Assembly: GCA_902619925.1 (NCBI GenBank)
Contig: CACNFY010000006.1
Span: 1-64,000, forward strand
Reading direction: 5' to 3'
From: an uncultured Pelagibacteraceae bacterium
GTDB lineage: Bacteria; Pseudomonadota; Alphaproteobacteria; Pelagibacterales; Pelagibacteraceae
DNA: 64,000 bases
Every line of letters starts with the position of its first letter. The first letter of the stretch is position 1. Shown piece by piece: positions 11,820-16,870 of the stretch. Made by a program: the position numbers and the translations under genes. Under the pieces are notes generated by a model. That model did not search any database. It was not told the origin of the DNA and was given only the letters and a program-made list of their open reading frames with translations.

Positions 11820-12482
11820 TTACTTTTGTGGGTCAGGTACTTTTCTTAAATACGGCTTAATTGTTTCCCAGCCATCTGGATATATTTTTTTAGCTTCCTC
11901 ATTTGTTACCTTAGGTACAATAATTACATCCTCGCCTGGTTTCCAATCTGCAGGGGTTGCTATTTTGTGTTTAGCTGTTCTTTGCATTGAGTCTATTGCT
12001 CTTAAAATTTCACCAAAATTTCTTCCTGTTGTCATTGGATAAGTAAGAAATAGACCAATTCTTTTGTCAGGTCTTACAATATATACTGTTCTCACAGTTT
12101 CGTTGTCAACGGCCGTTCTTCCCATTGAAGAGGTTCCAGCGTCGCCTTCCAACATATTGTATAACTTAGCTACTTCTAATTTTTCATCTGCAACAATTGG
12201 GTACTCGGGTTTCATCCCACATACATCTGTTATGTCCTCTAGCCATTTTTCATGATCAGACACGGGATCAACTGATAAACCCATAACTTTTACATTTCTT
12301 GCATCAAAATCTGGTTTCATTCTTGCTAAAGCACCTAATTCCGTTGTGCAAACGGGTGTAAAATCTTTTGGGTGTGAAAATAATACTCCCCAACTGTCTC
12401 CCAACCATTCATGGAACTTTATTTCTCCCATTTGAGTTTTTGCTGTAAAATCTGGTGCAACACTATTAATTTTTAATGTCAT
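11820..12482 (-). CDS. Peroxiredoxin (1-Cys, Prx6 type)
   Basis: SHPKDFTPVCTTELGALA; VDPVSDHEKWLEDI. Confidence 0.95.
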   Translation of the reverse strand: MTLKINSVAPDFTAKTQMGEIKFHEWLGDSWGVLFSHPKDFTPVCTTELGALARMKPDFDARNVKVMGLSVDPVSDHEKWLEDITDVCGMKPEYPIVADEKLEVAKLYNMLEGDAGTSSMGRTAVDNETVRTVYIVRPDKRIGLFLTYPMTTGRNFGEILRAIDSMQRTAKHKIATPADWKPGEDVIIVPKVTNEEAKKIYPDGWETIKPYLRKVPDPQK

Positions 12483-12557
12483 TTATGTCTCCTTTTTTAA
12501 ATTAAATTATATGCAAGATTGATTTGCTATGCAATTTTTTATAATGTTAATAAATAT

Positions 12558-13250
12558 ATGATATTTAATCAATTATTTGATAAAAAATCTTCAACCTACA
12601 CTTATATCATTTCTAGTGGAGAGGGTCGTGAAGCATTAATTATAGACCCAGTTATTGAACACACTGAGGAGTATCTTAAAATTTTGGAAAATCTCAAACT
12701 AAAATTAGTGAAAGTTATTGATACACATATTCATGCTGACCATATAACTGCATTAAATGAGTTAAATAAAAGGACAAGCTGTGCAAGAATTATGGGTGAG
12801 AACTCAAAATCAGAGGTAATAGATTTAAAAATAAAAGATAACGAAAAAGTTAAAATAGAAAATATTGAACTTAAAGCAATGTACACCCCTGGTCACACTG
12901 ATTGTTCTTATAGTTATCTGATGAATGATAGAGTTTTTACAGGAGATACATTATTAATTAATGGTACAGGTAGAACAGATTTTCAAAATGGTAGCTCATA
13001 TGATGCTTATGACTCACTGTTTAACAAACTTTTAAAACTTCCTGAAAATACGCTTGTATACCCAGCGCACGATTATAACGGCAAAAAATTTTCAACAATT
13101 GAAAATGAAAAAAATAATAATCCTAGATTACAGGTAAAATCTAAAGAAGAATATGCAGAAATAATGCAAAATCTGAATTTAGCTAATCCAAAAATGATGG
13201 ATATTGCTGTACCTGCTAATGTAAAGGGACTTACTTTAGACCAAATCTAG
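12558..13250 (+). CDS. MBL-fold metallohydrolase, persulfide dioxygenase (ETHE1)-like
   Basis: DTHIHADHITA, TPGHTDCSYSY, FTGDTLLINGTGRTDFQ, YPAHDYNG motifs; internal ATG preferred. Confidence 0.9.
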   Translation: MIFNQLFDKKSSTYTYIISSGEGREALIIDPVIEHTEEYLKILENLKLKLVKVIDTHIHADHITALNELNKRTSCARIMGENSKSEVIDLKIKDNEKVKIENIELKAMYTPGHTDCSYSYLMNDRVFTGDTLLINGTGRTDFQNGSSYDAYDSLFNKLLKLPENTLVYPAHDYNGKKFSTIENEKNNNPRLQVKSKEEYAEIMQNLNLANPKMMDIAVPANVKGLTLDQI

Positions 13251-13297
13251 TTAAAATTATAAGTTGTATTTAAAAATATTATAATTATATATTCCTT

Positions 13298-13417
13298 ATG
13301 GTTTGCAATAATCAAAAATGTAAATGTAAAAATTGCACTAATGATAAGTGTGCTTGTGAACATAACGATAATTGTGTTTGCAAATCAAAATCCGATTGTT
13401 GTTGTTGTAACGACTAA
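13298..13417 (+). CDS. Metallothionein-like 39-aa peptide with 12 Cys
   Basis: Own translation: MVCNNQKCKCKNCTNDKCACEHNDNCVCKSKSDCCCCND; not in ORF track (too short). Confidence 0.75.
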   Translation: MVCNNQKCKCKNCTNDKCACEHNDNCVCKSKSDCCCCND

Positions 13418-13448: not shown

Positions 13449-14033
13449 ATGAATGAATTTTTAGAATCTATAATAAAAAGAGATCCAGCTGCTAAGTCAA
13501 AACTATCTGTGATACTAACTTATCCAGGTGCAAAAGCAGTGTTCATGCATAAAATTGCAAATTTTTTTGCAGTTGCAAAGTTTGACTTGATAGCTCGAAT
13601 AGTATCTCAACTTTCAAGATTTATGACTGGAATTGAAATTCATCCAAAAGCTAAAATTGGAAAAAATTTATTTATTGATCATGGTATGGGGGTTGTAATT
13701 GGAGAAACATCAGATATTGGAGACAATGTAACAATTTATCATAACGTAACTCTTGGAGGAATTTCACCTAGTATAAATTCTGAAAATCAAAGGGAAACTA
13801 AAAGACACCCTACTCTTCATGATCATGTTGTTGTTGGTTCTGGAGCTCAAGTACTTGGACCTATTGTAGTTGGGAAGAATGCCAAAATTGGAGCAAATGC
13901 TGTAGTGACTAAAGATGTTCCAGAAAATGGAGTTATGGTGGGAATCCCAGCAAGAAATGTTGGAACAGCCACTGAAGAATTTAAACCTTATGGTATAAGT
14001 GACGAGGAAAAAAATGAAGAATTTTCAGAATAA
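13449..14033 (+). CDS. cysE: Serine O-acetyltransferase
   Basis: Hexapeptide repeats; [44 protein letters not shown]. Confidence 0.93.
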
Positions 14034-15015
14034 TTTTATTTCAGGAATTGGAAATACACCTTTAGTTAAATTAAGAGCTGCATCTGAAGCAACGGGATGT
14101 AATATTTACGGTAAAGCTGAATATCTTAATCCAGGGGGATCAGTAAAAGATAGGGCAGCGTTAGCTTTAATAAAAGATGCTGAAGAGAAAAAATTAATTT
14201 CTAAGGGTGGTACTATTGTTGAGGGCACAGCTGGCAATACTGGAATTGGACTTTGTCTTATTGGAAATTCAGTAGGTTATAAAACAGTAATTGTTATGAA
14301 TGATAATCAAACACAAGAAAAAAAGGATATGCTAAAAAATATGGGTGCTGAGTTAAAATTAGTTCCTCCTAAACCATATAAAGATGATGGTAATTATGTA
14401 AAGGTTGCAGGTAGACTTGCTGATGAACTTAAATCATCAAATAATCATGGAGTAGTTTGGGCTAATCAATTTGATAATACTGCTAATTTAAAAGGTCACT
14501 ATGAAAGTACAGGTCCTGAAATCTGGGACCAAACAGAGGGGAAAGTTGATGGGTTTGTTTGTGCATCTGGAACTGGTGGAACAATAGCTGGTGTAAGCTC
14601 ATATTTAAAAGAAAAAAATAAAGATGTTAAAATTTATTTATCTGATCCAACAGGTTCTTCTCTCTATAACTATATAGAAAATGGCGAACTTAAAAGTGAG
14701 GGAGGATCAATTACAGAAGGAATTGGTTCAAGTAGAGTTACGGCAAATTTCGCTGAAGCTAAAATTGATGGTGCTTTTTCAATAAGTGATAACGAGTCTT
14801 TGCCTGTTTTATTTGATTTAATTGAAAACGAGGGATTAAGTCTTGGAACAAGTTGTGGAGTAAATATTGCTGGTGCAATTAGATTAGGTAAAATATTAGG
14901 ACCAGGCAAAACAATTGTAACAATCCTCTGCGATAAATCAGACAAATACAACTCTAAGATGTTTAACAAAAAATTTTTGTTGGAAAAAGGGCTTCCCGTA
15001 CCTAGTTGGATATAA
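14014..15015 (+). CDS. cysK: Cysteine synthase A
   Basis: [40 protein letters not shown] motifs; start adjusted, overlaps cysE. Confidence 0.9.
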
Positions 15016-16112: not shown

Positions 16113-16490
16113 ATGAAAAAATTATTATTAATTTTAACAAGTTTTATAATTATAAATACAGCGAATGCTGGAAGTTTAAGTAAAAAAGATACAGATAAAG
16201 CCTGGGATTGTGTTGGTATATATATGGCTAATTATTTTTTGCCATCAGGTGAAACATTCGAATATAGCATGAAGGAAAAATCTATGGCTTCTGTTAAAGT
16301 GTGGAAAACCTATGCTTTAGAGATTGGTATTAAAGAAAAAGACTGGGACGAAGGAACTAATAAAGCAGTTGATAAACATTATGGCTCTAAATACAATAAA
16401 GAATTAACTGATAATTGTCATACTTTTTTAGAGGAAACTATTCCAAATGGTAAAGACCGTGTCGAAAAAGTTGTTCAAACCTTATATTAA
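16113..16490 (+). CDS. Exported small protein (paralog A)
   Basis: Signal peptide ...INTANA; two mature Cys. Confidence 0.7.
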   Translation: MKKLLLILTSFIIINTANAGSLSKKDTDKAWDCVGIYMANYFLPSGETFEYSMKEKSMASVKVWKTYALEIGIKEKDWDEGTNKAVDKHYGSKYNKELTDNCHTFLEETIPNGKDRVEKVVQTLY

Positions 16491-16492
16491 AA

Positions 16493-16870
16493 GTGAAGAA
16501 GATATTTTTAAGTTTGATAATCATTTTTTACACTACTATTTCTTTCGCAGGAGGTCATATAACTAAAGAGGACAAGGAAAAAGCTATAAAATGCTTGGGT
16601 CACTATACCTCAATATCATTTATACCTGCTAATGAAATTGAGGCTATCAGACTCGAATACGCTTTAGCCTCTTACAAAATTGTAAGAAAATATCTATTAA
16701 ATGAAAAAGTTAAAGGTGAAGAAATTAATAAAGGGACCAATGAAGAATTGGACAAATTAATTGGTAAACCATTTAACGAAGAAAGGAATGATAAATGTAA
16801 TTTATTTATTTATGATTTGATACCAGGTTCTAAAGATCAAATCGAAAAACTAAGAGGAACATTAGAATAA
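16493..16870 (+). CDS. Exported small protein (paralog B), GTG start
   Basis: Signal peptide ...ISFA; similar to 16113..16490 in length, Cys placement and C-terminus. Confidence 0.7.
   Translation: MKKIFLSLIIIFYTTISFAGGHITKEDKEKAIKCLGHYTSISFIPANEIEAIRLEYALASYKIVRKYLLNEKVKGEEINKGTNEELDKLIGKPFNEERNDKCNLFIYDLIPGSKDQIEKLRGTLE

Follow-up and report, generated by a model that had tools for sequence, protein, structure and literature searches.

Metallothioneins as a class are very small proteins with about 20-30% cysteine in CxC, CxxC and CC motifs and few or no aromatic residues, and in the metal-free state they are expected to be disordered. SmtA-type proteins use histidine and a zinc-finger-like fold. 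BmtA, SmtA and PmtA (PF02069) share with the peptide described here a small size, solubility, a high cysteine content and CxC and CxxC motifs; unlike these PF02069 proteins, however, the peptide has almost no histidine or aromatic residues. In a comparison made from general knowledge, it also resembles the animal alpha domain and yeast Cup1, which have about 30% cysteine, almost no aromatic residues, CxC modules and runs of adjacent cysteines. Within the open-access literature covered, we found no report of a SAR11 metallothionein. Short cysteine-rich reading frames are also known in a regulatory role: according to PMC9031893, leaderless poly-cysteine short ORFs of mycobacteria act as cysteine-sensing leader peptides, and PMC9031893 and PMC13236596 cite Canestrari et al. 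2020 for mycobacterial attenuator ORFs. From sequence comparisons, we consider it likely that the peptide reported here is a metallothionein-like member of an uncharacterised Pelagibacteraceae family, co-expressed with cysteine synthesis.

The window, meaning the whole stretch of 64,000 nucleotides that was analysed, carries the peptide gene in the following setting:

11820..12482, minus strand: 1-Cys-type peroxiredoxin, a divergent conserved neighbour (synteny and family search)
12558..13250, plus strand: MBL-fold, ETHE1-type persulfide dioxygenase-like protein, the upstream neighbour (start placed from N-terminal conservation; alternative TTG start at 12519)
13264..13269, plus strand: -35-like TTGTAT, 34 nt before the ATG (TTG at -34 to -32 in 94, 82 and 74% of 34 representative upstream regions)
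13286..13291, plus strand: -10-like TATATA, beginning 12 nt and ending 6 nt before the ATG (T/A/T/A/T at -12 to -8 in 76-85% of representatives)
13298..13417, plus strand: Cys-rich metallothionein-like peptide of 39 aa with CxC/CxxC modules and a CCCC tail (translation, family alignments, purifying selection)
13449..14033, plus strand: cysE, serine O-acetyltransferase, 31 bp after the peptide stop (TIGR01172 and NF041874 above cut-off)
13999..15015, plus strand: cysK, cysteine synthase A, which overlaps cysE at its end (NF007989 above cut-off; a later ATG may be the real start)

Translation of the ATG frame at 13298-13417 on the plus strand, stop included, yields 39 residues with 12 cysteines, exactly as quoted in the initial annotation, and its composition and spacing suit the metal-thiolate cluster peptide that this annotation had read from the CxC/CxxC pattern. 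When the whole window was shuffled 100 times with a second-order Markov model, no ORF of 30-60 aa contained more than 7 cysteines, against 12 in one ORF of the real window. Members of the peptide family have the composition of the metallothionein class: they are 36-44 aa long and 30.5% cysteine (compared with 1.0% in window ORFs of at least 200 aa), with no tryptophan, about 0.4% tyrosine and phenylalanine combined, and 1% histidine.

The peptide had been claimed to be missing from annotation, and Pfam, NCBIfam and PHROGs indeed gave no match to it; nor did the family find a relative in these libraries or in the PDB, where the best matches, to LDL-receptor and mucin repeats, were weak (E at least 0.11) and were rejected. 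PF02069 matched none of 27 family members at E up to 1 and was absent from 147 sampled Pelagibacteraceae genomes, with a Synechococcus elongatus control that did match, and from 21 relatives. Eukaryotic metallothioneins likewise gave no significant profile or PDB match to the family, and the resemblance to them lies in composition and is probably convergent.

The initial annotation had proposed tblastn searches of relatives as a check, and these recovered the family across the Pelagibacteraceae, with matches in 14 of 197 genomes, some of the weakest being chance; five weak loci (L008, L009, L011-L013) were discarded on that ground. A nine-member profile matched 31 of 397 Pelagibacteraceae genomes, with E-values down to 1e-16, and with a 27-member profile 34 of 297 genomes sampled from the order matched, every one belonging to the window's own family. 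There was no credible match in the 289 genomes of the class and 299 of the phylum that were sampled, and two weak class matches (E 0.02 and 0.06) proved to sit inside longer unrelated frames. Among the genomes sampled, the peptide family is so far known only from Pelagibacteraceae, and it may occur in other groups too. Searching phages and plasmids with tblastn gave no match, the BLAST low-complexity filter being capable of hiding some, and 67 DNA-pattern matches in viral contigs were rejected as translated frames that were short, out of frame or unrelated, with no family peptide among them.

In all, the family comprises 90 distinct genes encoding 79 distinct peptides with 10-13 cysteines, described by the consensus MACNNxKCKCTNCxxDxCxCDGxKxCxCKPExxxCCCNK; 11 cysteine columns of the alignment are near-invariant and the CCC tail is present in 89 of the 90 genes. 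Length changes across the family preserve the frame and some add cysteines, as in the longer 44-aa form with additional cysteine in L131 and L224. In-frame internal deletions in two genomes (L128/L129 and L130) leave both the start and the CCC tail in place, as in MVCNNPKCECMPSKATCCCKK. Single cysteine losses affect differing positions in single genomes (e.g. L010, L049, L127, L149, L152), and some may be single-cell assembly errors. The peptide is absent from most sampled members of the Pelagibacteraceae and is thus not essential. A further set of 80 loci came from named records, most of them single-cell genomes and some probably identical to genomes sampled earlier; 71 had testable junctions, of which 51 carried the peptide and 20 were empty. 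Mapping presence and absence on a quick tree of the MBL protein and CysE required at least four changes and revealed strong clustering, which under midpoint rooting would suggest old presence with a few losses.

The neighbours named in the initial annotation, a persulfide-dioxygenase-like MBL gene and cysE-cysK, are in agreement with the family matches listed above and with the PDB, in which the entries nearest to the MBL protein are ETHE1-type persulfide dioxygenases (4ysb, 2gcu and human ETHE1, 4chl), its matches to NCBIfam models all falling below cut-off. Genus g1 has a divergent peroxiredoxin followed by MBL, peptide, cysE and cysK. In g4, a further genus of the Pelagibacteraceae, where gene names were read off the sequence and not taken from a family search, a dehydrogenase-like gene adjoins on the opposite strand and the peptide occurs without an adjacent persulfide dioxygenase; it is followed by cysE and an msrB-like gene in L005 and L021, and in L024, L025 and L028 by an msrB-like gene a few bases downstream with no adjoining cysE. 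The gap between MBL and cysE in relatives measures 190-276 bp with a full-length peptide and 23-51 bp without one. The distance from peptide stop to cysE start is conserved at 25-38 bp, and for this reason the two genes are probably co-transcribed. The initial annotation had staked its case on a frame and cysteine pattern conserved upstream of cysE in relatives, and frame, pattern and position all turned out to be conserved. In peptide-less loci (L050-L053, L055, L111-L119, L147) the short MBL-cysE gap often closes with a TATATA-like box some 7-8 nt upstream of cysE, as though cysE itself then took over as the leaderless first gene.

No Shine-Dalgarno sequence is apparent before the peptide, as had been noted at the outset; instead, the ATG is preceded by the promoter-like TTGTAT and TATATA. 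Aligning 34 upstream regions on the ATG revealed a common TTG at -34 and TATATT at -12 to -7, with conserved spacing. Transcription starting some 6-7 nt past the -10 box would begin at the ATG itself. The mRNA is therefore probably leaderless, which would likely explain the missing Shine-Dalgarno. Also conserved is AA at -44/-43, and a GCG-containing element occurs around -48 in several members. A near-palindromic AATTTGCGGCAAATT-like element, possibly a regulator site, lies about 55 to 40 bases before the ATG in L045, with similar elements in L003, L026, L006, L004 and L046; this AATTTGCGGCAAATT-like element sits upstream of the -35 box, and the window's own copy is degenerate or missing.

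A dN/dS-type comparison, which had also been suggested, revealed purifying selection that is very strong on the cysteines and weaker but detectable on the other residues. Across 30 independent sister pairs, the 11 cysteine columns accumulated 60 synonymous and 5 nonsynonymous changes, so that the cysteine positions are under selection as in the metallothionein class. At non-cysteine columns pN/pS was 0.43 (bootstrap 0.34-0.54) by simple Nei-Gojobori-style counting with multiple hits uncorrected, falling to 0.23-0.32 in closer pairs. In neutral simulations of these columns with a transition bias (kappa) of 1 to 8, mean values were 0.69-1.06 and the lowest value, 0.50, came at kappa 8; the observed value is below every simulation. 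The encoded residues therefore matter, the cysteines most, and by these sequence comparisons the ORF is a genuine small protein.

The candidate SAR11 metallothionein-like family put forward in the initial annotation is thus well supported by its conserved frame, cysteine pattern, position and selection. A metallothionein is favoured because 12 cysteines in 39 aa are combined with conservation, selection, a fitting composition, synteny and length changes that keep the frame and even add cysteines. Under this reading, the peptide would be translated from a leaderless mRNA and would form the first cistron of a peptide-cysE-cysK operon, a cysteine-rich chelator thus being made together with its cysteine supply. 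The unfolded cytosolic peptide would wrap round soft metal ions, its 11-12 cysteines matching, by analogy with the animal metallothionein alpha domain as generally described, about four Zn(II) or Cd(II) ions (M4S11-type) or several Cu(I), and the predicted outcome would be zinc or copper buffering; the peptide may also be a thiol sink amid persulfide, peroxide and cysteine chemistry. Against a metallothionein stand the lack of detectable similarity to any known one in profile, PDB and family searches, the fact that no metal-regulator site was identified, the peptide's absence from most of the Pelagibacteraceae sampled, and the deletions in L128/L129 and L130, since a leader peptide would tolerate such forms better. 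SAR11, with its minimal genomes, ranks among the ocean's most abundant bacteria, and a conserved peptide of this kind would give a new handle on how it holds zinc, copper or cadmium where metals are very scarce, besides tying metal buffering to cysteine synthesis. What is new is a peptide family that lies outside every metallothionein family searched and is absent from annotation libraries.

The main rival, which we regard as unlikely, is that the frame is a leaderless poly-cysteine uORF in which scarce Cys-tRNA slows the ribosome at the CCC(C) tail and so raises cysE expression. The mycobacterial attenuators described in PMC9031893 provide a precedent and share with the peptide a short ORF (leaderless in mycobacteria and predicted to be so here), contiguous cysteine codons and a position upstream of a cysteine-synthesis gene. 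The leaderless start predicted from the promoter register, the near-universal tail, the short distance to cysE, which lies downstream in nearly all cases, and the internally deleted forms that retain start and tail would all suit such a role. The peptide nevertheless differs from those attenuators in having cysteines throughout, selection on other residues, no supporting RNA structure in the stretches folded and sometimes an msrB-like gene, not a cysteine-synthesis gene, after it. Were only the cysteine codons to matter, the non-cysteine residues would not be under purifying selection, and the eight cysteines outside the tail are conserved almost as well as the tail itself. In the four stretches folded, covering tail, spacer and downstream start, structure was no stronger than in shuffled sequences (z 0.09 to 2.51), and many relatives run cysE without the peptide. 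TGC makes up 386 of 1028 cysteine codons in the family but 32 of 165 in the large ORFs of the window, a higher share that would fit ordinary translation better than stalling. A leader peptide as the sole function is made less likely by the selection on non-cysteine residues, by the msrB context and by the absence of excess folding in the four stretches; metallothionein and cysteine-sensing roles could, however, coexist. We think it distinctly unlikely that one leaderless ORF does both, with translation of the CCC tail sensing cysteine and setting cysE while the finished peptide is a metallothionein consuming that cysteine, but if so, a single gene of 39 codons would let a streamlined genome couple metal buffering with cysteine synthesis.

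It is doubtful, too, that the peptide is a thiol peptide serving sulfur and not metal, carrying or storing sulfane sulfur (persulfide) or reduced sulfur. The ETHE1-type enzyme, cysE, cysK and peroxiredoxin of its neighbourhood and the msrB-like gene of genus g4 would suit such a function, but spaced CxC and CxxC motifs with almost no aromatic residues are a metallothionein signature that sulfur storage does not need, and in genus g4 the peptide does without a persulfide dioxygenase alongside. A spurious ORF or sequencing artefact, suggested by a short, unannotated frame lacking a Shine-Dalgarno, is scarcely credible and already contradicted by comparative data, namely the conserved frame, a pN/pS well below 1, the conserved promoter register and the many independent single-cell genomes that carry the peptide.

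Further downstream in the window, the adjacent plus-strand ORFs at 16113-16490 and 16493-16870, each of 125 aa with a signal-peptide-like N terminus, look like tandem paralogues.
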